This document shows positions 9,901 to 24,555 of a stretch of DNA of 64,000 bases, piece after piece. A program made the position numbers and the translations under genes. The stretch's first letter is position 1. Each line of letters opens with the position of its first letter. The notes below the pieces were generated by a model, which worked only from the letters and a program-made list of their open reading frames with translations, did not search any database and was not told the DNA's origin. Source of the stretch: Flavobacteriales bacterium (GTDB taxonomy: Bacteria > Bacteroidota > Bacteroidia > Flavobacteriales_F > PHOS-HE28); NCBI GenBank assembly GCA_019638085.1, contig JAHBUL010000009.1, positions 1 through 64,000 on the forward strand, given 5' to 3'.

Positions 9901-9966
9901 GGTTTGCCCTACTCCACTTCCGGCCCGTCGTTACTGCGTACAGCAATCCAGTCAGGGACAAAAAGA

Positions 9967-9998
9967 ACAAGCCCTTCAACTTTCGTTGAAGGGCTTGT
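9967..9998 (-). terminator. Terminator of tRNA-Arg
   Basis: A perfect 14 bp stem (ACAAGCCCTTCAAC / GTTGAAGGGCTTGT) around TTTC. On the minus strand it is followed by TCTTTTTG, so it terminates the tRNA-Arg transcript; it could also stop readthrough from the siaC-like gene on the plus strand. Confidence 0.85.
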
Positions 9999-10008
9999 CA
10001 CTGTATTG

Positions 10009-10144: not shown

Positions 10145-10951
10145 TTAACGTGGCTTGTAATACTTCATCGCCTCGGGCATATAGGCCTTCAGATCAGCGA
10201 TGCGTCGTTCGTCGCTTGGGTGGGTGCTCAGGAATTCCGGTGGCTTGGCCCCTCCCTGTGCGGCCATGCGTTCCCAGAATGCAGGAGCCACACGGGGATC
10301 ATAACCTCCCATGGCCATGAAGACCAGCCCCATCTTGTCCGCCTCGCTTTCCTGCTTACGCCCATACGCCAACATACCCAATTGGCCACCCACGCCGTAG
10401 GCTTGGAGGAACAGGTCTGATGCAAGGGATGGGTTCTCCGCAGTAAAGGCCTGCAAGGTGAGTCCGGCACCCTGCACTGCCAGTGCTTGGCTCATCCGCT
10501 CGTTTCCATGCCTCGCTATGGCATGGGCGATCTCGTGCCCCATCACAAGAGCCAAACTCGCTTCATCCTGGGCCACAGGCAAAAGCCCTGTATACACGAC
10601 CACCTTACCACCGGGCATGCACCATGCGTTCACCATGGGATCGTCCACCACATTAAAATCCCACTCGAAATTGGCCACCCGGTCCGCAGCATCGTGTTCC
10701 TTCAGGAATGTAGTGGCTGCTGCGGCCAAGCGGTTACCGATCCCCTTTACCAAGACCACCCTTTGGTCTGAGGAAGGAAGCGGTGGATGTTCCTTCAGGA
10801 AGTTCTGATATTGTGTAAAGCTCATGCTCATCATCTCCCCTTCCGACAGCAAATTCAATTGGCTGCGCCCGGTAATGGGCACTTTTGAGCATCCCGCCAG
10901 CAGTGCAAGCATGATTGGCAGAGCGAGCAACCTGCTCCTGATCGATCTCAT
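10145..10951 (-). CDS. M48 family metallopeptidase lipoprotein
   Basis: The 268 aa product has a lipoprotein signal (LPIMLALLAGCSK, lipobox Cys at about residue 21) and the zinc-binding motif HEIAH (in LVMGHEIAHAIARHGNER), with the downstream Glu ligand probably in SEADKMGLVFMAMGGYDP. This is the architecture of soluble periplasmic M48 peptidases such as BepA/LoiP/YcaL, which act on misassembled outer membrane proteins. Substrate cannot be read from the sequence. The start ATG overlaps the clpS stop (ATGA), so it is translationally coupled to a cytoplasmic proteolysis adaptor. Confidence 0.92.
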   Translation of the reverse strand: MRSIRSRLLALPIMLALLAGCSKVPITGRSQLNLLSEGEMMSMSFTQYQNFLKEHPPLPSSDQRVVLVKGIGNRLAAAATTFLKEHDAADRVANFEWDFNVVDDPMVNAWCMPGGKVVVYTGLLPVAQDEASLALVMGHEIAHAIARHGNERMSQALAVQGAGLTLQAFTAENPSLASDLFLQAYGVGGQLGMLAYGRKQESEADKMGLVFMAMGGYDPRVAPAFWERMAAQGGAKPPEFLSTHPSDERRIADLKAYMPEAMKYYKPR

Positions 10952-11229
10952 TGGATTTCAGCTGAAAGGCCGCGGTCGCAGAGGGCTTCACACATGGGTC
11001 GTAATACTTCGAAAGCCCCGCGCTTCACGCTGCATTTACCGGTATAATGCACAAGCCATGCGCATTGTTCGGCCTGCAAGGGCTCATGGTCGCAAATATC
11101 CATCAAGCTCACGATGACATGTTCGAAGGTGTTCACATCATCATTATGCAGAATGATCTCCTTGGCCTTCACATCGATGACCAGTGTTTCCACCTCAGAC
11201 CATTTCTTCTCCTTTCGCTGCGTGCTCAT
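10948..11229 (-). CDS. clpS: ATP-dependent Clp protease adaptor ClpS
   Basis: The 93 aa product carries the ClpS core LHNDDVNTFEHV, whose Asn-Asp pair contacts the N-degron, and AWLVHYTGKCSVKRG with the conserved His. ClpS delivers N-end-rule substrates to ClpAP; clpA is not in the window. The start MSTQRKEKKWSE at 11229 is chosen over the longer ORF from 11265 because the family begins just before a charged, flexible N-terminal tail. Confidence 0.93.
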   Translation of the reverse strand: MSTQRKEKKWSEVETLVIDVKAKEIILHNDDVNTFEHVIVSLMDICDHEPLQAEQCAWLVHYTGKCSVKRGAFEVLRPMCEALCDRGLSAEIQ

Positions 11230-11440: not shown

Positions 11441-14400
11441 TTACTGCGTGGCCAGTGCCGGATCCACCAGGATCTCCCGCCCGAACTTGGCCAACAGCGC
11501 TCTTGCATCCCGTATGGGAATGCGCTTACCATTGAGGTAAGCCGTAACGAAGGCATCACTTACGCCGAGGGCCACAGTGCCGCTTCGGCGCTGCACCGCT
11601 TGGCCTTCATTCAGGAAAATGCCGGTGGTGTACCGGATCTTCCCCGTAGTGGTAAGTTCGCTGTTGAGCGGTGTAATATTGAACAGGCGGTCCAACGCAG
11701 TGGGTTTGCTATAAACCCCTACCTGAACTGTGAAGAAGAGTCCCTTCACCGCCTCCACTTGCTTGGCTGGCGCAGCAGCAGGGTCGTTGTAATATTCCGC
11801 AGCGTTGTCGGATGGTTTGAAAGCGGCCAGCACCTCTCCTGCAGTGGTGGGATATTCGGCCAGTACAGCATCTCCAGGTGATGCTTGGGGAATAGTGGTG
11901 GTAACGGGCTCAGCGGTAACAACCGTGGTAGTTCCTGAGGAAGTGGCTATTGAATTGCCAGTGTTGGTAGCAGGGGGTGATGCTGTTGATGTTTCCGGTG
12001 CAGCACCGGGTATCGTGTTCTGAGCGAGCATGGCGCGCTCGGCCTGCATCGCTTCGCGCAAGGGCACCCGCTTGCCATCCATGTAGGCTACGACGAACGC
12101 ATCCCGATATCCACGGTCGCGCACCTTTGCTCCCGCCTCGGAAGCACTCTGCGCACTGGTGAACATTCCGGCCGTATACCGCACCAGCCCGTTGCCTGCA
12201 TGCTCCCCTGTCACTGGGGTCATATCGCTGAACGCCTCCAAGGGAAGTTCGTTCCGGAAGGCACCTACTTGCACCTTGTAAACAATCCCCACCGGCATTG
12301 GCACATCGATCGGAATGGCTTCCTCCCTTGGGGCGGCACGCTCTTCAAACTGGAACACATCCCTTGCCAAGGGCTTATTGAATGGTACCGGGGATCTGTC
12401 CATAGCGGTGCTCACACCCGCCATGCGCTCGGGTCCTTCACTTCTTACACGAACCGGGGGCTCCTCCGGTATTGCCCGCTTCGGGACCTCCACCTCAACT
12501 GATGCTATTCGCGGTTCTTGAGTGGCCAAGCTCTCTGGTGTTCTCGTTGACCGAACCGCTGTATCGTGCAAGGAAGGCGCTACGCGTTCCTGTACGTTGC
12601 TCCCCTGATCGGGCTGTGGTGTTCCCACGGCGGCCGCATGCTCTTCTTCCCGGGTGTTCCGAGCTACTGCAAGCTGTTCCTGCTGAGCTTGTTCCTGGTC
12701 TGCTAATGCAACCGTAGTGGAAGATGGCGATGGACGCGGTCGCGTGCGGGCAAGCAAGGGTTCGGTACGTCGCTTGCCTTGCTCAAGATCCATGATCATT
12801 GCGGATCGGTCTGCTGGCATGCCCTGCATCAAAGTGGCCGCTTGGGCATCGTTCAAGATGGAGGATGCTATCAATTTATCGGCTTCGGCATGCAAGGAAT
12901 CCGATCGGAGGGTAAGCGCATCAGCACGTGCTTCCAACTTCTGCACTTGTTCACGATTCCTTGTTTCACCCTCTGGAGTATTATTCCGCAATTCACCGGC
13001 CTCCTCTCGGAGGATCGTTGCCAGGGTTTCACCACCTTCGGCCTCATTCCGGATCGCAGCGGCTTCAGTTCGCTCTTGTATGGAACGGCCCTTCATCATG
13101 AAGTACTTGCGCTCCTCCTCCCCGTTCATCACCGTATTGCGCTCCTGCGCATCCAAGTAATAATAGCTATCCAAGTACGCAGCCAGCACTGCACTATCGG
13201 CCCTCACCGGAGCAACTGTACTTAAAGCAGTACCATGTGTTGCTTCTTCCTGATCAGTACGTTCAGTTTTCGGCTCCGCGGCGGTGATAACCTCACTTGG
13301 GACCTCCCGAGCTTCCACCGTTACGCTATCAATTCCAGTGTTCCGCCCCGGAACGCCTGACGCAACTGGTTCCTTAGGCTCTTCACTTGTACGGGCTGTG
13401 GACTGCTCCCCAGCCGGAGTTTCTTGGACAGCATCTGCACTGTCGCTCATGGCAATTGAGGGAGTAGCAAATGCGGAGGGATACATCCGCTGCTCCACTT
13501 CTTCATAGGTCAATGCTTCGCCAGGGGTGGCTTGACCGCTCAACAAGTAGCTACGCACCGTATGTGAACGATCATAATCACGCAAGGCCTTCAGCTCCTC
13601 GGCATACGCTTGGCGGTAGAGGGAATTCCGCTTGAAAATATCCCGAGCATCATCCGCCTGCTTACGGAAATTCTTGGCCTTGCCCATGGATGCATCGGCA
13701 GCCTCCACGTAGGACCTCCCCATCTGCATCAGCGGCTCATCAGGCGCAAACCCTTGTTTCGCCAAGCTCTTGTTCAAGACCTTCGCACTATCCTTGGCCA
13801 CGGCATATTCGCTCATGCTGATAAAGGCCAAGCGTTGACCCAGGTCCACATTATGGATCAACATATCGTCGATCTTCCGGTCCACCTGTTGGCGCAGCTT
13901 ATCATAGTTCTTACCTGCCGGGGTCTCCGCGAGGACGATCTGCATGCTGTCGATCTCCAACTGCATGTCTTCCCCGATCTGGAGGTCCCGATCCTTCATG
14001 GCAACAGCCTCCTCGCTTTTGGAAGAACGCGGTTGTAATGGGCTGGCATAGATCTGATCCAGATCGTCACTTAATGTGATATAGGAATCATTATGGGGGG
14101 ATTCCGGGACCGATCGGCCTTGGACGCGATCCTGCACCGCAGCCTGACCGGACAGTTGCGCATCCTCCAATGCCTTGGTTTCCGTAGCTGCATATTCTTG
14201 ATCCACTTCGGCCAAGGCTTGCGCAGCATTTTCCACATGTACGGTCTTCAGTTTCCTCCAACGCTCCATTCGCGGGAGCAATTCATCCGCTTGTTCAGGG
14301 TGCTCCTCTAAGAATGCAAGGATCTTGGCGGTCTGAACATCAATGCTATCGACCAACTGCATCTCCAGGGCATGGAGCATGCTGGCCTTCTCACGCGCAC

Positions 14401-17400
14401 TGGCGGGTCCCTCCAAAATGGTCTTCCGCCTCAAGTTAAACCCCGGAAAGGCCTCCTCTGCCAATTCCTCATCCAGGATCGACATATCAAACTCCAGGAA
14501 TGTGTACTCGTGCATGTCCTGCACACGGGTCGCCTTGGCGAGGGTACGTGCTTCATCATCTTTCTCATGGAAAGCAGCGATCAACGCTTTCTGCTGTGCG
14601 ATGGCCTGATCAAGGCTGTCCCTTCTCGAACGCGTCTTCTCACCCTGGCGTAATTGCTCCAGTTCAGCAAGTTTATTGGCCATCAGGAATGCGGTCTCAT
14701 CCGCAGGGGTGCTCAACTCCTGAACGGGTGCTCCTCCCTCTGCCGAGGCCACCTCTTGATGCTTATTGGAACCTTCGGGAATAGCGTTGCCTATCTGATC
14801 CGCTGACCGGGCTTGACCTTTACTTTGTTCGGTCTGGAGGCCTCCACCCTTCTCCACACCCTGCTGTTGAGCCTGAGCGAGTGCGTTCCCGGATCCAGAC
14901 CCGCCACGCTCATCGGCTTGTGCAGTGCCAGCCTCTTGAGCATCCGTTCCGGCAACTTGGTCCTCCTGTTGCTCCGGGGTCTGGATGCTCTCGGCCAGGG
15001 CCGTTCCGTTATCGGGTCGTTCTTGGTCTGTACGCACTGTACCCTCATTCAGCACACCATCCGCATTGTTGGTCTGCCCATCGCTACCAGCCAGTGCATT
15101 GGCCTCGGTAGCCGATGAGGTCTTGGACTGAGGTTGCGTACTATCCCGATTCAATGAAGATGAAGCCTGTTCCTTGGTCCCATCAGCAGAGGTAGTTGAT
15201 TTTGCTGGTGTATTCTTAGCTACTGTCTGTGTGTCCGCAGTTCGGGTGCTTGTGGTGATGCCGGCCAATGTTTGCCCCCCACCCCAATTGAACATTTGCC
15301 TTTCTCGTTCCTCCGCAGATACAGTGCTGATCGGGTCGTATTGCGCATCGATCACCAATGCCATGTTTCCTTCCTTGACCTGGGCCAAACGCTGCTCAAG
15401 GCTTGCCAGCGATTCCTTTTTCACGGTTTCAGCGGTGCGGGTATCAGGGGAATTGCTCAAATACCTCATCAATTGCACTTGTCCCCGTACCAAGGCGGCA
15501 TTTTCCTCGGCCTCTTGTGCTAGCGTGTATGCCTTCTCCACTTCATCGTGCAAAGCCTTTTGCTGTTGCTTCAACGTGGACAATTGTGCATTGAGGTCTT
15601 CCTTTTTACGCCCCTTCGCATTCTCTACCTCACGTGCCAAGCGTCCTATCCGGTCGGCAAGGATGTCCTCATCCCCCCGGAGCGCCGCTGCCTGCCTCAT
15701 TCTGCGAGAGGCCTCCGTACTTGCATCGGATGCAGCACGTCGCATCCGCTCGAGTTCATCCTCGGCTGCATCAGGCCCATTCCGTTCATCAATACTGGCC
15801 TTTAGCTGCTTCAAGGCAGTGGTGGCCTTCGATTGGTCGTTCATGGCCTGGGCTTGGACTAATTCAGCGGTTAGTGCGTCAGCCGCTATTGCGCGTTTCT
15901 TGTTCAGCGCGCCTGCTTCACCGATCTCCGTTCCGGTTCGATAGGCAGCTCGGGTCCGTGCTCCGGCTTCCAACGAACGCTGCTTCGCTTCCGCAGCCTC
16001 GCGCATCAGGCTGGTCTTTTCAGCCTCATCCACCGTGGCATCAGCCTGGTCCATCAACGCAGCCGCCCGCTTGGTCTCAGCCTCCGCCATTCCTATGTTT
16101 TCCAAGGCCAGCCCAAAGGCTGCGTTCTCCTGTTGCTCTTGTTCCACGGCCAGTACCGTGATCATTTCGGCCTCTTGAGCAGCCAGATCAATGGCCTTGC
16201 TCATGGTCATGGTGCCATCAAAGCCGGCAGCCTGTAGCGGGTCCTTGGGCGCGGAATCCTGTGGAACCACTTGAGCTTCTGCTTTCTCCCCCGTTACATC
16301 CAGCTTGGCCCGCCTACGGATCTCATCCAACGCCAAGGCCATTACATCCTCATCCAAGGGTTCGTCGAAGTAGTTCTTCACATCCACTTTTTCACCTCCC
16401 CGTTCCACGAGTTTGATCTCCTGCTTAAAGGCGGTGGGCTTATGCGCGGAAGGAATTTCAATGGTTTCCAGATGCGACCGCCCGCTTGGCCCACCTTCCA
16501 CCAGGACCTTGTACTTCCCGCCACGGGGAAGGGCAAGCACATACTCACCGTTCATGTCGGTGGTAACATCCGCAACGCGCTCCCGGGTAAGGTCATCCTC
16601 CACGATGATCCGTGCCCGACGATCAGTGGGATCGAATGCAGAGGCGTACGTCCCCTTCAGCACGGTGATGTTGATCGGTGTTTGGGTAGTACCCACCCGG
16701 TACACGTTCACCATACCCTGTTTGCTATCACGATCACTTGCAAAACAAGCTTGCTTGCCATCGGGACCCACGATGTAGAGCAACTCATCCCCTGGGGTGT
16801 TCACGGCAAAATCCATGTTCTCCGGAGCACCGAATACGTCCATGCCTTTATCGTAGGTACTCCTGAACACATCGTAGCCCCCCATGCTGTTATGCCCCTT
16901 ACTGCAGAAGTAGAACGTCCTTCCATCGGGTGCCATCACGGCATAGTCCTCATCCAGATCGGTATTGATGTACCCCGCCAACTTAACCGGCGTGGCATAG
17001 CTGCCGGTAGGCAATAGTTCACTCCGGTAGATATCCCTGCCGGTCCTTCCATCCTTGCCGTAGCTACTGAAGAAGATGGCCCCCCCCTTTGTTGGCAAGT
17101 AGGTCAGGAACGCCTCTCCGCTCTTGCGATCGATGTTGGAGAGCAGCTCCGTAGGCGTCACCACGATCTTGCCCCCGATATCGCTGAGATCATAAAAACG
17201 GAAGAAGTCCGCTGCATCCACTTCCAGCTTATTCAGCACCTGGATGTCCTTGAGATTGCTCAGGAGATATTTACCGTTCCTGCATTGTTGCTCCAAGGCA
17301 TCGACGGGAAAGCGGGTCAGTAATTTTTTATCTGCTGTACCCCGGTAATGCTTATAGGCGGAAATGGCTTCATCGAACTGGTAATCGAGCTGGTACGCAC

Positions 17401-17719
17401 GCCCGAGGAAGTACCATGCCAAATTCGGTGTTGTCGGCCCTGCGACGGAAAACTTCAGATAACCGATGGCCTTGGATTTTTCTTCCCCGCCATACAACGC
17501 ACATGCACCGTACTTGTAATTGAGCACATGATCGTGAGGGGAAAGGCTCACCAATTGGGAGTACATCGGAAAAGCCTTGGCGTACTCACCTTTTTCGAAC
17601 AAGGCATCGGCTTCGCTCTGCAAGGCAACATCACCCCCTTGTGCATGGCCGCTGATGGCCACTACCGCCATACACAACGATACCAGTGTGGCACGAACGA
17701 TATGGATGCGGCCTTTCAT
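11441..17719 (-). CDS. Giant exported TPR-PD40-CRD-coiled coil protein with two SPOR-like domains
   Basis: The 2092 aa product starts MKGRIHIVRATLV with a signal peptide cleaved near GHAQG. TPR-like repeats occupy about residues 30-170, a PD40/WD40-like propeller about 190-390 (GRDIYRSELL; PDGRTFYFCSKGHNSMGGYDVF; FASDRDS) and a carboxypeptidase-regulatory-like domain about 395-470. A long Ala/Glu-rich coiled coil and Ser/Thr/Gln linkers fill the middle. The end has two SPOR-like repeats: VYKVQVGAFRNELPLEAF (about 1810) and FFTVQVGVYSKPTALDRL (about 1995), each followed by AYMDGKRVPLRE or AYLNGKRIPIRD. The first three domains are in PorE order. Start overlaps the plsY stop (ATGA). Function is inferred only. 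Confidence 0.85.
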   Translation of the reverse strand: MKGRIHIVRATLVSLCMAVVAISGHAQGGDVALQSEADALFEKGEYAKAFPMYSQLVSLSPHDHVLNYKYGACALYGGEEKSKAIGYLKFSVAGPTTPNLAWYFLGRAYQLDYQFDEAISAYKHYRGTADKKLLTRFPVDALEQQCRNGKYLLSNLKDIQVLNKLEVDAADFFRFYDLSDIGGKIVVTPTELLSNIDRKSGEAFLTYLPTKGGAIFFSSYGKDGRTGRDIYRSELLPTGSYATPVKLAGYINTDLDEDYAVMAPDGRTFYFCSKGHNSMGGYDVFRSTYDKGMDVFGAPENMDFAVNTPGDELLYIVGPDGKQACFASDRDSKQGMVNVYRVGTTQTPINITVLKGTYASAFDPTDRRARIIVEDDLTRERVADVTTDMNGEYVLALPRGGKYKVLVEGGPSGRSHLETIEIPSAHKPTAFKQEIKLVERGGEKVDVKNYFDEPLDEDVMALALDEIRRRAKLDVTGEKAEAQVVPQDSAPKDPLQAAGFDGTMTMSKAIDLAAQEAEMITVLAVEQEQQENAAFGLALENIGMAEAETKRAAALMDQADATVDEAEKTSLMREAAEAKQRSLEAGARTRAAYRTGTEIGEAGALNKKRAIAADALTAELVQAQAMNDQSKATTALKQLKASIDERNGPDAAEDELERMRRAASDASTEASRRMRQAAALRGDEDILADRIGRLAREVENAKGRKKEDLNAQLSTLKQQQKALHDEVEKAYTLAQEAEENAALVRGQVQLMRYLSNSPDTRTAETVKKESLASLEQRLAQVKEGNMALVIDAQYDPISTVSAEERERQMFNWGGGQTLAGITTSTRTADTQTVAKNTPAKSTTSADGTKEQASSSLNRDSTQPQSKTSSATEANALAGSDGQTNNADGVLNEGTVRTDQERPDNGTALAESIQTPEQQEDQVAGTDAQEAGTAQADERGGSGSGNALAQAQQQGVEKGGGLQTEQSKGQARSADQIGNAIPEGSNKHQEVASAEGGAPVQELSTPADETAFLMANKLAELEQLRQGEKTRSRRDSLDQAIAQQKALIAAFHEKDDEARTLAKATRVQDMHEYTFLEFDMSILDEELAEEAFPGFNLRRKTILEGPASAREKASMLHALEMQLVDSIDVQTAKILAFLEEHPEQADELLPRMERWRKLKTVHVENAAQALAEVDQEYAATETKALEDAQLSGQAAVQDRVQGRSVPESPHNDSYITLSDDLDQIYASPLQPRSSKSEEAVAMKDRDLQIGEDMQLEIDSMQIVLAETPAGKNYDKLRQQVDRKIDDMLIHNVDLGQRLAFISMSEYAVAKDSAKVLNKSLAKQGFAPDEPLMQMGRSYVEAADASMGKAKNFRKQADDARDIFKRNSLYRQAYAEELKALRDYDRSHTVRSYLLSGQATPGEALTYEEVEQRMYPSAFATPSIAMSDSADAVQETPAGEQSTARTSEEPKEPVASGVPGRNTGIDSVTVEAREVPSEVITAAEPKTERTDQEEATHGTALSTVAPVRADSAVLAAYLDSYYYLDAQERNTVMNGEEERKYFMMKGRSIQERTEAAAIRNEAEGGETLATILREEAGELRNNTPEGETRNREQVQKLEARADALTLRSDSLHAEADKLIASSILNDAQAATLMQGMPADRSAMIMDLEQGKRRTEPLLARTRPRPSPSSTTVALADQEQAQQEQLAVARNTREEEHAAAVGTPQPDQGSNVQERVAPSLHDTAVRSTRTPESLATQEPRIASVEVEVPKRAIPEEPPVRVRSEGPERMAGVSTAMDRSPVPFNKPLARDVFQFEERAAPREEAIPIDVPMPVGIVYKVQVGAFRNELPLEAFSDMTPVTGEHAGNGLVRYTAGMFTSAQSASEAGAKVRDRGYRDAFVVAYMDGKRVPLREAMQAERAMLAQNTIPGAAPETSTASPPATNTGNSIATSSGTTTVVTAEPVTTTIPQASPGDAVLAEYPTTAGEVLAAFKPSDNAAEYYNDPAAAPAKQVEAVKGLFFTVQVGVYSKPTALDRLFNITPLNSELTTTGKIRYTTGIFLNEGQAVQRRSGTVALGVSDAFVTAYLNGKRIPIRDARALLAKFGREILVDPALATQ

Positions 17720-18366
17720 AACTTTGAAGTTGACCTGCCCAGCAGGTCCATGCGGCTCTCGTTTCCTTTCACCAAGCGGCCGATATTTTGGCGGTGTGTA
17801 TAGAAGACGACGACACAAAGTAGCCATGCAAAGATCTTCATCACCAAACTGGGTTCATGAAAAACCAGCGTGACCGCCACTGGAAAAGCGATCGCAGCCA
17901 CCAAGGATGCGAGCGACACGTAGCGCGATATGATGAAAATGATGAAGAAGACGATGATGCAGATCAATGCTGAACCGGGGTGTATGGCCAATATGCCTCC
18001 CAACGAAGTAGCAATTCCCTTGCCACCCCGAAAGCCTGCAAATACAGGATAGAGGTGTCCCACGACGGCCGCTGATACGAGAAGTACCCGTAAAAGGGTC
18101 CATACATCGGAATAGGGCTCGGCACCGCTCCATATAGGCAGCAGGCGGACGGGCAGGAAACCCTTCAGAACATCGAGCAATAGAACGGGCACACCTGCTT
18201 TCGGACCGAGCACACGGAAGGTATTGGTGGCGCCGGCATTATGGCTTCCATGCTCGCGGATGTCCACACCGAAGAACCCTTTGCCCCACCACACGGAACT
18301 GGGTATGCTCCCGCATAGGTAGCTGATGGCCATCGCCGTGATCCCGTACATCCAAGGAAACTCCAT
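17716..18366 (-). CDS. plsY: Glycerol-3-phosphate acyltransferase PlsY
   Basis: The 216 aa multi-pass membrane enzyme transfers an acyl group from acyl phosphate to glycerol 3-phosphate, giving lysophosphatidic acid, the first step of phospholipid synthesis. Family motifs are present: SYLCGSIPSSVWWGK, GSHNAGATNTFRVLGPKAG and GHLYPVFAGFRGGKGIAT. Several hydrophobic helices follow. Its acyl-phosphate supplier PlsX is not in the window. It lies 2 bp after the 1482 aa gene and overlaps the giant protein gene (ATGA). ATG 18366 (MEFPWMYG) and 18351 (MYGITAM) are both possible starts. Confidence 0.95.
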   Translation of the reverse strand: MEFPWMYGITAMAISYLCGSIPSSVWWGKGFFGVDIREHGSHNAGATNTFRVLGPKAGVPVLLLDVLKGFLPVRLLPIWSGAEPYSDVWTLLRVLLVSAAVVGHLYPVFAGFRGGKGIATSLGGILAIHPGSALICIIVFFIIFIISRYVSLASLVAAIAFPVAVTLVFHEPSLVMKIFAWLLCVVVFYTHRQNIGRLVKGNESRMDLLGRSTSKL

Positions 18367-18368
18367 GC

Positions 18369-21300
18369 TTACAGTCCGAATCGGTCGCGGAATTCGTCCA
18401 CTTTGCGTTTGTTCGTCAAGATGAATTGATAGTCCGATTCTCCCTTTTTACCGGAGAATTGCCGTTTGTCGTCCTTCAGGTCGCTGATCATCGTATTGAA
18501 CTCAGCGTTGCTGCTGTACGCGTACATATAGTTCCTCGCGTATTGGAAGAACCAATAGGTCTGGTTATCCAGCATGAGCAACACGGTCATTACATCACCA
18601 CTGCGCTTACGCTGGAATTCCACCTTCCCTTTCAAATAGCGGTACACCGGTTTCTTCAGCACCGTACCCAACCCGAGCTGCCCCGTGGTCTGCCACGCTT
18701 CATCTTTAGCGCTCCACTCCAAGTTCAGGTCGCAGAACACCAAGGCCTTCACCAACTCATCCGGTAGCCTTTTGATCTCTCCCTTTATACTGAGCTCACT
18801 GATCAGCTTATCGCTCCTTTCCTTACCAAGCAGTTCGCGCAACGACCGCTCATAAGGGGTCTTGGACAGATCCACCTGCTTCTGCTCGGGATACGCCACG
18901 ATATCGGCCACCATCTTCTCCAAGGCATTGTCCAAGAATGGGAAATCCGCCAATAGCGTCACCCGTTCGGTTGCCGTGGAATTATCCCCTCGGTATTCCA
19001 ACATGCCATAAGCATCCACTTTCACCTGTCCTAGTTCCACGCCTTGGCTGATCTGGCCATCGGCAGAGAGCAGGCATGTTTCCGTGGAAAGGGCCACCAA
19101 GTTGCCAGGGAGGTCGCTTTGCCGGATCTTGTCCTTGTTCGAGATGAGATAGGACTTCTTCACCTTATCGAAGAACAGCAAGCCTTTAGCACTGATGATG
19201 TCCCGGTCAGCCTTGTCCTCCTTGCGGCTTAGGAATGTTCCGTAAGTGTTGAATGGATCATCCTTGGTCATATAGATGCCTGCTCCCACCGGGAAACCTT
19301 GCGCATCCATCAGGGAATCGCTGACGGGAATGAAAACCTCGGCTGGATCGATCTTTCCGGTGAAGCCCATCCAGTTCCGGGATATGCCAGCACAATCGTG
19401 CTTGATGCGGGTGTTGCCTGTGAATGTGAGCTCTTTGCTGGTCGCTTCCAAAAGCACATCCCCGAAGAAATCGAAGGCAGGGCTTAACTGAAAGTTCTCC
19501 TCCTGTGGAACTCGACCCAATGCATAGGTTTGGAATGAGGTGTCCACGTTGACATTCTTCATGTTGATCGGGAAGGTCTTCCCGGTCTCGTCCTTGTAGT
19601 CATAAATACCCGAGCCGCTGTACTGCCTGCGTGCAGAGATGTTCACCGTGGCGCTATGGATGGTGTGGTACTTGTTCACGAAGTTGGCGGTAATGGTTGC
19701 ATCGACCAGCGGATCCATTTTCGCATTTCGGCCGATTCGCACCCGCATGCTATCCGGGGTGATCAAGGCATCGGCCACTTGGATATACTGCACATCGTTG
19801 GCCGTGATCAGGTGTTTTTTCAGGTCGTACCGGGCCTTGGGCGCCATGAACCGGAGCGAATCCTGATCGGGGTTCACACTGATGAAATTGCTACCGGATA
19901 GCTGCAGGTCCTCGTTGCCCGCAGAAGCGGTGCGGTCGCTTTCAAGTTCGATATCGCCTTGATCCATGTACCATTTGAAGCGGTCCATGAAGCACACATA
20001 CTGATTGTATGGAAATTCAACCTTCGTCTCGCTTCCGTTGCTGACGAATTCACCAATGCGTTCATCGAGTTTCACAGTGGCATTCACGTTATCGGTCCGG
20101 AAAGCGATGCTTGCGGTATCCCCTTCCGTAAGGCGGAAATCACTGGTATCCGCATGCACGTTCATGGTCTTGAAGTCGAATAGCTTGGAATTGAGCGTGG
20201 CATTGGTGAAATCCACCAGTCCTGCACCACTCATTCCGCTGGGGCTCAGCTCGGTCTTTCCATAGAGGTACGCTTGTTTGTCATACATCACCATCGGTGC
20301 CTCCAGATTGCGCGCCATCAGCACATCCTTTGCCGGCTCCAGACGCAGGAATACCTGGGCAGCCTGCACATTGGGTACGTTCAAGGTTGGGCTCGAAGCC
20401 GCACCATTGTACAGGGTATCCGCCACCCCGAAGGTGGTATCCGGCGTGAACACCAGGTCCTTGCTGCGCGCAATGGTTGTGAGGTAGCTGAGGTCGCCCT
20501 CGCCGTGCAGACCTTGGTTATCCAGTTTCAAGGTCTCCGAGAATTTGGCCTTCTTTCCATAGAGCGGGAGGCCGCCCTCGCCTGTAGGTCGAACAAAGCC
20601 CAACGCGTAGTCCTCTTGCAACCGCAAGGTCTCTCTTATGTCAGGGAATATGCCTGCGCTCATCAGTGTACCATCGAACTTCAGGCCCTCGTTACTGAAA
20701 TTATCCAAGCTATCGAGCATGAAGGGATCGCTCTTGTAGTAGAATTTGTCGCGGATATATGCCCCGTTCTGGATGGTACTCCGATCATAGAAGACGAAGC
20801 TCTCCTGCGTGCTGTTGAACTTGGGATACTCCGGGTACTTCTCTTGTTGCAACCCGTTCTTGTTGGAGGGAGCGTCGATCTCCAAGGTGCCGGTAACGTT
20901 CTCCAGGACGTTCTTCACCTTCACCAACCCGTGACGGCCATTCCCATCAGGCTCGAAGCTTTCGGCCAGAAAGCCCACACTATCCACGTTGAGGAGATCG
21001 ATCACGAAAGGCGCATAATGGAAGTAATACTCCTTGCCGTAGTACGTGAGCTTACCCGCCTTCACCATGCCCCCGAAGCTGAAATCCCGATCCTTCTTGA
21101 TGGTCACCAATTTCTCGGCCGGATAGACCTTCACATCCTGTGAATCACTTAATGTAATGCGAGATACCCCCTTGAGTACCAGGTCATTATTTAGCAAATT
21201 GATGGTCCCGTTCACCCCGTCGGGGCTGTTGCTATTGAACTGGAGCACATCGTAATCCATCCGACCGGCACTGGAAAGAATATGCTGAAGCAATCGGGGC

Positions 21301-22817
21301 AGCAAGGTCACCCGGTCATCCTCAACGTCGTAGTACAAGTACCCCTTATTGGCCATGTCGATGAGCATGGGTTTCACCTGAGGCATCTGCAATTTGGCAT
21401 ACCGTGCGAAATCCTGCGCGTAGAACTCCTCCCCGGACTGTTTGCTGAATTCGCGAAGGCGGGACAAGGGGTGTACATTATCGATACCGAGCATCGCCGT
21501 GTACCGGCGTTGTTCAAAGTAATTGAAGCTCTCGAAGGAAGTACGCGTTTGGGTAGTGCCTTGCATATTACCCAATTGCAATAAGGGGTCCCCCTGTTTC
21601 CAACGGAATTCCTCGAAATACATGTCCAGCTGGTGATAGGTATCATAAAAGGGCCCTTTGGATAAGCCCTCATCCCGCTTGATCAGGGTGAGCTGCTTCT
21701 TGTCGCGCATGAAGCGGAGCGTTACACTGGGGTGGTAGATGGAATCCTTGTCCAGCTTAATAGTAACTGCCACATCTTCACTGGATACTTTGTCTGGTTC
21801 GATGGTAAACACAAGCCCCTTGGTTGTGATGAACGGTTTGCCTTCCCGCTTGAAAATGAGGGTAGCCGGCTCAGCCATGGTCCCATAGCCCTGTAGCTTG
21901 GCCCCTTGCATGGTAAAACCGCCTTCGAAATCGATGTCAGGCACGATCTCATTGATCCGCTTACGCAGATCGTAGCTCTCAAAACGCGGATAGCTGGCGG
22001 ATGTCTCCGTGACATTGGCTCTCAGCTTATCCACCACCGTACCCAGCAGGACCTTGTCGAAATAGGGATCGGTAAAGCCCACGCTATCGATTGACACTTC
22101 CGTTGTTTTGAGCTTCAGCGAATAGCCGTGCGCCCATTTCACGAATGTGTGATCAGGTGCCAATCCAGCTCGCCGCCACGTGATCGTGCCTCCTTTACCC
22201 ACCCAAAGGTCTGTAAGCGGATAGTATGTGCCGCTGGTGCTTTCGATCACGGAGCTATCCGTTCTGGAAGACCAGACCAGATCCATTGTGTTGAACTCCA
22301 CTTTGGGTACACTATCAAATGCGAAGGTGAATTTTCCGGCACGTGCTCGCCAATTAGAACTCGCGGTCGTGTAGAGGACATTGTTCGAGAGGAGCCCATT
22401 GCTCATATCGAGATAATCGGTGAGGTCCTGCTTGCGCGATGACCGCCCGGCTTGTTCCAATCCTTTGAGCCAAGCGTCAAGCTCTGCGGAAGAATGCCCT
22501 TTCAACGGGAAATTAGCGGCCGTATTCAACATCTCCTTGAAATCCGGAATGGCGGAAAAACGCTTCTTCGCCATCGTGTTGGAGATGGCGACGATGCGTG
22601 AACGTTGGTCCTGGCTCAGGTTGGGCCCATTCCAGAACGGAGTGAACACCGTTTCCACGAAGGCGGTTCCTTCCTTCTTGTTCGCGCCTACCAAAAAGCT
22701 TGTGATCTCGCTCAGATAGGCAGCTTGATCATTGGAGAACACTGGTGCTTGGGCCCATGCGGAGAATGACCCTATCAGCATACTAGCAGCAAGAATGACT
22801 ATCCGGAATGATCTCAT
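18369..22817 (-). CDS. 1482 aa exported protein of unknown function
   Basis: I do not recognise the family. After a signal peptide (IVILAASMLIGSFSAWAQ) the protein has a helical N-terminal segment of about 120 residues, then hundreds of residues of short beta-strand-like segments with recurring 'ADALI.PDSMRVRIG', 'DLVLKGVSRITLSDSQDVKVYP' and 'GKLTYYGKEYYFHYAPFVIDL' patterns that suggest a repetitive beta architecture such as a solenoid or jellyroll (OstA/LptD-like in feel, not demonstrated). There is no T9SS tail. ATG 22817 overlaps the prmA stop (ATGA), and plsY follows after 2 bp, so it is embedded in a housekeeping operon and probably acts in the envelope. Confidence 0.8.
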   Translation of the reverse strand: MRSFRIVILAASMLIGSFSAWAQAPVFSNDQAAYLSEITSFLVGANKKEGTAFVETVFTPFWNGPNLSQDQRSRIVAISNTMAKKRFSAIPDFKEMLNTAANFPLKGHSSAELDAWLKGLEQAGRSSRKQDLTDYLDMSNGLLSNNVLYTTASSNWRARAGKFTFAFDSVPKVEFNTMDLVWSSRTDSSVIESTSGTYYPLTDLWVGKGGTITWRRAGLAPDHTFVKWAHGYSLKLKTTEVSIDSVGFTDPYFDKVLLGTVVDKLRANVTETSASYPRFESYDLRKRINEIVPDIDFEGGFTMQGAKLQGYGTMAEPATLIFKREGKPFITTKGLVFTIEPDKVSSEDVAVTIKLDKDSIYHPSVTLRFMRDKKQLTLIKRDEGLSKGPFYDTYHQLDMYFEEFRWKQGDPLLQLGNMQGTTQTRTSFESFNYFEQRRYTAMLGIDNVHPLSRLREFSKQSGEEFYAQDFARYAKLQMPQVKPMLIDMANKGYLYYDVEDDRVTLLPRLLQHILSSAGRMDYDVLQFNSNSPDGVNGTINLLNNDLVLKGVSRITLSDSQDVKVYPAEKLVTIKKDRDFSFGGMVKAGKLTYYGKEYYFHYAPFVIDLLNVDSVGFLAESFEPDGNGRHGLVKVKNVLENVTGTLEIDAPSNKNGLQQEKYPEYPKFNSTQESFVFYDRSTIQNGAYIRDKFYYKSDPFMLDSLDNFSNEGLKFDGTLMSAGIFPDIRETLRLQEDYALGFVRPTGEGGLPLYGKKAKFSETLKLDNQGLHGEGDLSYLTTIARSKDLVFTPDTTFGVADTLYNGAASSPTLNVPNVQAAQVFLRLEPAKDVLMARNLEAPMVMYDKQAYLYGKTELSPSGMSGAGLVDFTNATLNSKLFDFKTMNVHADTSDFRLTEGDTASIAFRTDNVNATVKLDERIGEFVSNGSETKVEFPYNQYVCFMDRFKWYMDQGDIELESDRTASAGNEDLQLSGSNFISVNPDQDSLRFMAPKARYDLKKHLITANDVQYIQVADALITPDSMRVRIGRNAKMDPLVDATITANFVNKYHTIHSATVNISARRQYSGSGIYDYKDETGKTFPINMKNVNVDTSFQTYALGRVPQEENFQLSPAFDFFGDVLLEATSKELTFTGNTRIKHDCAGISRNWMGFTGKIDPAEVFIPVSDSLMDAQGFPVGAGIYMTKDDPFNTYGTFLSRKEDKADRDIISAKGLLFFDKVKKSYLISNKDKIRQSDLPGNLVALSTETCLLSADGQISQGVELGQVKVDAYGMLEYRGDNSTATERVTLLADFPFLDNALEKMVADIVAYPEQKQVDLSKTPYERSLRELLGKERSDKLISELSIKGEIKRLPDELVKALVFCDLNLEWSAKDEAWQTTGQLGLGTVLKKPVYRYLKGKVEFQRKRSGDVMTVLLMLDNQTYWFFQYARNYMYAYSSNAEFNTMISDLKDDKRQFSGKKGESDYQFILTNKRKVDEFRDRFGL

Positions 22818-23665
22818 GCAGCGTGTTGCGTAATGGTCCGTACCCATCGTGAAAAAGCCCATTCACCATCGTGCAGTTGTTGCACGTTGGTCAATCCGGC
22901 CTGTTTGGCGGCCTGTGCCATGATGGCTTCGTCCGCAATAACAAAGCCACTGAGCAGCAGGTTTCCTCCTTCTGCCAAAGCACCCACCAGGTAGGGCATG
23001 GCATGTACCAGTGTATTGCGTTCGATGTTCGCCAAAATAGTATCGTATTCAGCGCCACTTTCCAGATCAGTGCCGTCCTTTTCCACCGTAATGCGGGTAC
23101 ACTTGTTCATCTCCACGTTCTCACGGGCATTGGTCACGGCAGTGGGATCGTTATCGATGGCGATAATTTCGGTCGCCCCCAGTCGTTCCGCCAGTATGGC
23201 CAGCACACCTGTGCCACACCCCAGGTCACATACACGCTGGCCGGTAAGGTCCATTCCCATCATGGAGCGTACCATCATCCGGGTGGTGGCATGGTGCCCT
23301 GTTCCGAAGGCCATGCGCGGGGTGATCACCAGATCGTGCTCATAGCCGGCCACTACCGGATGGAATTCGGCCCTGATGCGAACCTTGCCGTCCACTTCAA
23401 CCGGCTGGAACTCCTGCTCCCATCGCGCATTCCAGTTCACCTCAGGTACTTCCCGCACGGTGTGCGACACGGATACATGAGGGTCCCGCGCAACCATTAA
23501 TCGATCCAGAGCGGAACGCTCGAACTCGGCCGTTGGCACGTATCCCTTCAGCCCGTGCGAAGTTTCCTCAAAGCCTTCATACCCCAGCTCCATCAGTTCA
23601 ACCATCAACAGGTCGCGCCACGGCTCCACTGGTGCCACAAGGAAATCCACTTCGGTGTAGCGCAT
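22814..23665 (-). CDS. prmA: Ribosomal protein L11 methyltransferase PrmA
   Basis: The 283 aa SAM-dependent enzyme methylates ribosomal protein L11. Motifs: RMAFGTGHHATTRMM, the SAM-binding DLGCGTGVLAILAERLGA, IDNDPTAVTNARENV, and the catalytic-region TILANIERNTL. The start overlaps the tpiA stop as TGATG. The gene sits in the tpiA-prmA order found in Bacteroidota, and its own stop overlaps the start of the 1482 aa protein. Confidence 0.95.
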   Translation of the reverse strand: MRYTEVDFLVAPVEPWRDLLMVELMELGYEGFEETSHGLKGYVPTAEFERSALDRLMVARDPHVSVSHTVREVPEVNWNARWEQEFQPVEVDGKVRIRAEFHPVVAGYEHDLVITPRMAFGTGHHATTRMMVRSMMGMDLTGQRVCDLGCGTGVLAILAERLGATEIIAIDNDPTAVTNARENVEMNKCTRITVEKDGTDLESGAEYDTILANIERNTLVHAMPYLVGALAEGGNLLLSGFVIADEAIMAQAAKQAGLTNVQQLHDGEWAFSRWVRTITQHAA

Positions 23666-24456
23666 CAGGCGGCGGTCTTTATGCGCTGAGCAATGCGCAT
23701 GAGCTCAATGAACTTTTCCGCTACCAAAGCAGCTCCGCCGATCAAGCCTCCATTGATATCGCTTTCAGCAAAAATGCCTTCGGCGTTCTCCGGCTTGCAG
23801 GAACCACCATAGAGAATTGGGATCCCTGCGGCCATGCCACCGGACAGTGCTTGCAACTCGGCCCGGATGAAGGCGTGAACTTCTTGAGCTTGCTCCGGTG
23901 TGGCCGTAAGGCCGGTACCGATGGCCCATACGGGTTCGTATGCCACAACCACCTTTGCCACCTCCTCAGGAGAAAGCGCGCCCAAGGCAGTATGTATTTG
24001 GGTGGACACCACATCGCGGTATCGGCCCTCCTCCCGCTCCTCACGGCGTTCGCCACAGCAATAGATCGGTTGAAGTCCATGCTTCAGGAGCAATGACACC
24101 TTTCGCCCCACCACTTCATCGGTTTCCCCGTAATACTCACGGCGTTCGCTGTGACCCACAATGCAGGCTCCCACGCCCATCGACCTCAACATCGGGACGC
24201 TCACTTCACCGGTGAACGCGCCGGATTCTTCCTGGTGACAGTTCTGTGCTGCAATGATGATGGTTGATGGACCATCAGCCGCTTTTTTGACCTGTTCCAC
24301 AGCTGCGGCAAGAAAGGGATATGGAGGTGCCACGATCATCTGTACATCCCCTTGGTCTGCAGCGGACCACCCGACGAGCGCCTCCATCAGGTTACCTGCC
24401 TCCGTGGCATCGGTATGCATCTTCCAGTTCCCTGCAACAATTGTCCTCGTCTTCAT
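23665..24456 (-). CDS. tpiA: Triosephosphate isomerase
   Basis: The 263 aa enzyme interconverts dihydroxyacetone phosphate and glyceraldehyde 3-phosphate. Catalytic residues are visible: Lys in GNWKMH (residue 11), His in CIVGHSERREYYGE, and Glu in VVAYEPVWAIGTG; the phosphate-binding GGSCKPENA and GGLIGGAAL are also present. The start is MKTRTIVAGNWKM (24456); a second ATG three bases upstream is equally possible, and the longer ORF from 24492 is unlikely. Length is normal for the family. Confidence 0.96.
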   Translation of the reverse strand: MKTRTIVAGNWKMHTDATEAGNLMEALVGWSAADQGDVQMIVAPPYPFLAAAVEQVKKAADGPSTIIIAAQNCHQEESGAFTGEVSVPMLRSMGVGACIVGHSERREYYGETDEVVGRKVSLLLKHGLQPIYCCGERREEREEGRYRDVVSTQIHTALGALSPEEVAKVVVAYEPVWAIGTGLTATPEQAQEVHAFIRAELQALSGGMAAGIPILYGGSCKPENAEGIFAESDINGGLIGGAALVAEKFIELMRIAQRIKTAA

Positions 24457-24555
24457 CATCCTCGCTATTGTGAATACAAAGATCGCCGACAAGATGCTAC
24501 GGCCGCAGCCCGGCCGGACTGTTTGTCAACGAATTGTGCTTGGCAGGCCGTTCAC

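Follow-up and report, generated by a model that had tools for sequence, protein, structure and literature searches.

A large, widely conserved putative envelope protein, mostly of Flavobacteriales, with predicted tandem SPOR domains

Background

PorE is a T9SS-associated anchor that ends in an OmpA_C peptidoglycan-binding domain. In Porphyromonas gingivalis, PorE (PG1058) contains a TPR domain, a beta-propeller, and a carboxypeptidase-regulatory-like domain (CRD) in this order [PMC7192894, PMC5053529], and the protein carries N-terminal lipidation [PMC7192894]. The OmpA-like proteins of the CHU_0125 family (NF053607) are a second group of close relatives, which match the N-terminal half of the protein that we describe here, although this protein ends in SPOR and not in OmpA_C.

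SPOR domains in known proteins bind denuded peptidoglycan. Denuded glycan strands are enriched at the division septum in known bacteria, and SPOR proteins may act away from the septum too. In RlpA, the residues that contact the glycan are Q270, F274, and R309 [PMC6895207].

In the present study, we analyzed a 64,000-nucleotide window (contig JAHBUL010000009.1) from a Flavobacteriales bacterium and examined one giant protein encoded in it. The sequence data point to a large, widely conserved envelope protein, found mostly in Flavobacteriales, in which a front part with the domain order of PorE is joined to SPOR units. We found no description of this TPR-propeller-CRD-SPOR architecture in the literature searched, which consisted of open-licence papers only.

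Results and discussion

The gene and its product

The first-pass annotation had reported an open reading frame of this size without naming a strand. The reading frame is real and lies on the minus strand: translation from position 17719 gives 2092 amino acids, and the plus strand of the same segment contains 28 stops. The features of the locus are listed in Table 1, in which the cleavage site of the signal peptide was placed by eye.

Table 1. Features of the giant gene and its neighbors (window positions; residues refer to the giant protein)
Feature	Position	Strand	Residues and remarks	Basis
M48 metallopeptidase gene	10145..10951	minus		PF01435, 5.7e-34; synteny
clpS	10948-11229	minus	between the giant and M48 genes
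Giant protein gene	11441..17719	minus	2092 aa; signal peptide, no lipobox
SPOR unit 2	11495..11749	minus	1991-2075	unit similarity, alignment, model, second aligner
SPOR unit 1	12041..12295	minus	1809-1893	Pfam, profile, model, Foldseek, second aligner
Charged, Ala-rich segments, probably helical	12740..16222	minus	about 500-1660; Pro/Ser/Thr/Gly-rich linkers between
CRD	16370..16675	minus	about 349-450	Pfam in relatives, AlphaFold strands
PD40 beta-propeller region	16676..17251	minus	157-348	PF07676, 3.2e-07; AlphaFold all-beta
TPR domain	17261..17638	minus	28-153	Pfam TPR_2, PDB TPR matches, AlphaFold helices, Foldseek
Signal peptide	17639..17719	minus	1-27; cleavage ...SGHAQ-GGD	sequence
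plsY	17716..18366	minus	ATGA overlap with the giant gene	TIGR00023 over cut-off
Exported protein, family not assigned	18369..22816	minus	about 1480 aa; start in ATGA overlap
prmA (presumed; named from reading of the sequence)	22814..23665	minus		ORF, junction, synteny
tpiA (presumed; named from reading of the sequence)	23665..24492	minus		ORF, junction, synteny

All 34 homologues of the giant protein have a signal peptide without a lipobox (the lipobox pattern occurred in 0/34 N-termini), and the AlphaFold model shows a hydrophobic N-terminal helix at residues 3-23. The protein is probably exported, soluble, and periplasmic. Such a helix at the N-terminus, separated from the SPOR tail by a long periplasmic stretch, would also suit a division protein of the FtsN/DamX type. 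In such a protein, the helix would stay uncleaved to anchor it in the inner membrane, and the SPOR tail would direct wall synthesis by sensing septal glycan. However, the giant protein has a cleavage site of the AxAQ kind, hardly any cytoplasmic residues precede the helix, and the same genome encodes a separate HU-CCDC81-SPOR protein that could fill the division role. We regard the FtsN/DamX-type reading as quite unlikely.

Front part and middle

The order TPR, PD40, and carboxypeptidase-regulatory domain, which had been proposed at first reading, was borne out by Pfam, by Pfam matches in relatives, and by AlphaFold. In the model, which covers residues 1-560 (mean pLDDT 83.4), a TPR-like helical domain is followed by beta domains. 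TPR_2 scored 1.4e-04, which is under the Pfam cut-off; in Foldseek, the TPR region matched the TPR domain of CHIP with a TMt of about 0.7. The carboxypeptidase-regulatory domain gave no Pfam match in the giant protein of the source genome itself, but a beta domain stands at this position in the AlphaFold model, and among 24 aligned family members CarboxypepD_reg was matched in four and CarbopepD_reg_2 in one. The N-terminal model as a whole had no PDB match in Foldseek, which returned just TPR and beta pieces.

The middle of the protein is probably helical, and the model contains a helix at residues 506-559. The "long coiled coil" of the first-pass annotation was an over-reading, as linkers interrupt residues 500-1660 and the heptad-like periodicity is weak (z up to 2.2 against shuffled sequences).

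SPOR units

The C-terminal units, previously called SPOR-like, are supported as SPOR domains by sequence profiles, predicted structure, and ligand positions. PF05036 scored around its cut-off of 21 bits (22.6 bits in the genome search and 19.8 bits in the full-length scan) and matched 11 of 24 family members (best 2.3e-12); no OmpA domain was matched in the full-length Pfam scan. A PDB search with a profile of 30 homologues gave the SPOR domain of CwlC as the sole match (E 0.0086). The two units share 37% identity (E 3e-19), and a chance SPOR match was ruled out by this identity together with the family-wide conservation.

In the AlphaFold models, both units lie mostly above pLDDT 85-90 and resemble the SPOR domains of CwlC, DamX, and RlpA. 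The best Foldseek match was CwlC (prob 1.00, TMt 0.67, E 0.033). A second structural aligner placed CwlC (Z 6.3), DamX (5.0), RlpA (4.9 on unit 2), and DedD (4.3) among its top eight matches, although Z values below 8 can arise from common folds. The models almost lack the first helix of the SPOR fold, and past the last strand they have a hairpin and a helix that are conserved; thus, the units look like a subtype. The fold and the ligand positions are common to the giant protein and to RlpA, DamX, DedD, FtsN, and CwlC, whereas the giant protein differs from these in its tandem units of the subtype with helix 1 nearly missing and in its large TPR/propeller front.

When placed on RlpA by motif rather than by superposition, Gln1817/Gln1999, Phe1821/Tyr2003, and Arg1847/Arg2029 fall at Q270, F274, and R309, respectively. 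The alignment of 30 sequences shows no variation in either the two Gln or the two Arg columns. Units of so divergent a subtype, which have little of helix 1 and score weakly in Pfam, might have lost glycan binding and mediate protein-protein contacts alone. The invariance of Gln and Arg at known ligand positions argues against such a loss, which we consider very unlikely, and we keep the reading that the units bind glycan.

Relationship to PorE and the T9SS

The giant protein and PorE are related by sequence. Residues 211-406 fall in the PorE profile (NF052230; 9.1e-17, 60.6 bits) and in the CHU_0125 profile (NF053607; 3.7e-20, 72 bits), far under the NCBIfam cut-offs (a curated score over 600 bits for the former and 620 for the latter). 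However, the giant protein lacks OmpA_C and a lipobox, is about three times as long as PorE, and has two SPOR units. The source genome encodes a separate PorE-like protein with TPR, PD40, CRD, and OmpA, and NF052230 had matches in 58/58 genomes searched. In trees built from the N-terminal region common to both, the giant proteins group in a clade separate from that of PorE, and both clades hold sequences from the same genomes. The giant protein is not a PorE orthologue, and a replacement of PorE by the giant protein was ruled out by the co-occurrence and the trees.

The first-pass annotation had suggested a PorE in which OmpA_C had been swapped for SPOR. The SPOR part of this suggestion is supported by the comparisons above, whereas the swap is not supported, given the separate PorE-like protein, the profile matches in all genomes searched, and the trees. 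Our T9SS survey covered SprA and PorE. SprA was found in 58/58 relatives searched, among them about eleven outside the genus with no giant-type match; thus, the co-occurrence of SprA and the giant protein is uninformative.

The giant protein might still act alongside PorE as a T9SS-associated anchor that fastens T9SS or gliding complexes to the wall by SPOR rather than by OmpA_C. The match of its front part to the PorE profile and the presence of SprA in 32/32 giant-bearing genomes tested are in keeping with this. On the other hand, PorE-profile proteins occur in every relative and apart from the giant protein in the source genome, some SprA-positive genomes are without the giant protein, and no T9SS gene was recognised in its cluster. 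We judge such an anchor to be rather unlikely. A reading as T9SS cargo was ruled out, as Pfam found no cargo-type C-terminal domain.

Distribution and gene cluster

By our count, strong matches to the giant protein occurred in 31 of 34 genomes of the same genus and in 12 of 23 more distant members of the class. When named genomes were scanned, relatives of the SPOR tail were found to be encoded in 489 stretches; 80 were kept, mostly titled as Flavobacteriales or Bacteroidota MAGs, and in nearly all complete reading frames of these 80 loci the same N-terminal half is joined to the SPOR tail. Nearly all full-length homologues have two or three SPOR units, two being usual in the genus and three occurring in many others. 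The full SPOR tandem is rare in an even sample of the phylum.

One record titled Glaciecola amylolytica (CP034120.1, L166) holds the gene cluster of the giant protein together with SprA and is thus probably mislabelled. The same may be true of some MAG records that bear the names Chryseobacterium gleum or Chitinophaga pinensis.

In the window, tpiA, prmA, the gene for the protein of about 1480 residues, plsY, and the giant gene follow in succession with overlaps or a two-base gap; clpS and the M48 gene come next, and a terminator-like site lies past M48 at 9966-9999. The operon coupling to plsY noted at first reading holds, as the start of the giant gene lies within the ATGA overlap. The order of the unassigned gene, plsY, the giant gene, and M48 is conserved in several other families, with some loci lacking plsY, and M48 is the downstream neighbor in most homologous loci. 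The protein of about 1480 residues gave no match in Pfam, NCBIfam, and PDB searches; its homologues in other families are 35-41% identical to it, and it is better conserved than the giant protein. As the neighbors include housekeeping genes, this context says little about mechanism, and any link of the giant protein to lipid synthesis or to the M48 protease would be conjectural.

Proposed role

A role of the giant protein at the cell wall may fairly be inferred. We think it rather probable that the protein is a periplasmic scaffold, whose TPR and propeller domains dock partners and whose tandem SPOR domains hold denuded, probably septal, glycan. In this scheme, partner envelope proteins would dock at the front part with its TPR, propeller, and CRD domains, the long and probably helical middle would extend across the periplasm, and the SPOR domains would hold peptidoglycan strands stripped of peptides. 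The giant protein would in this way link an envelope protein complex to the septal or remodelled wall. One cell would then use the TPR-propeller-CRD scaffold with two wall-binding ends, OmpA_C and SPOR, and the question of how such Bacteroidota tie the envelope to the dividing wall becomes directly testable.

Other SPOR proteins of the genome

Other proteins of the same genome also carry SPOR units. An Amidase_3 protein (L214:4737-6296), belonging to the enzymes that generate denuded glycan, has a C-terminal SPOR domain of the same subtype as the giant protein, which PF05036 missed. An OMP barrel protein (L215:7068-9149) combines TSP_3 repeats with two or more SPOR units in the place usually taken by OmpA; it resembles the giant protein in this envelope architecture, but its front is a beta-barrel with no TPR or propeller. 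Of 30 relatives, 26 gave matches to it, some of them to the barrel part alone.

Profiles of TolB and Pal gave nothing over the curated cut-offs in the genome, although these models may not suit the phylum, and 18 OmpA-type domains were counted. It is conceivable, but in our view doubtful, that this lineage of Bacteroidota uses SPOR-based tethers (the giant protein, the OMP barrel, and the amidase) to denuded septal glycan in place of the work of Tol-Pal/OmpA.

The gene of the OMP barrel protein adjoins one for a 478-residue protein (L215:9173-10609) that has a single SPOR unit, again of this subtype, and next to which a reading frame of 1868 residues reads like an alpha-2-macroglobulin.
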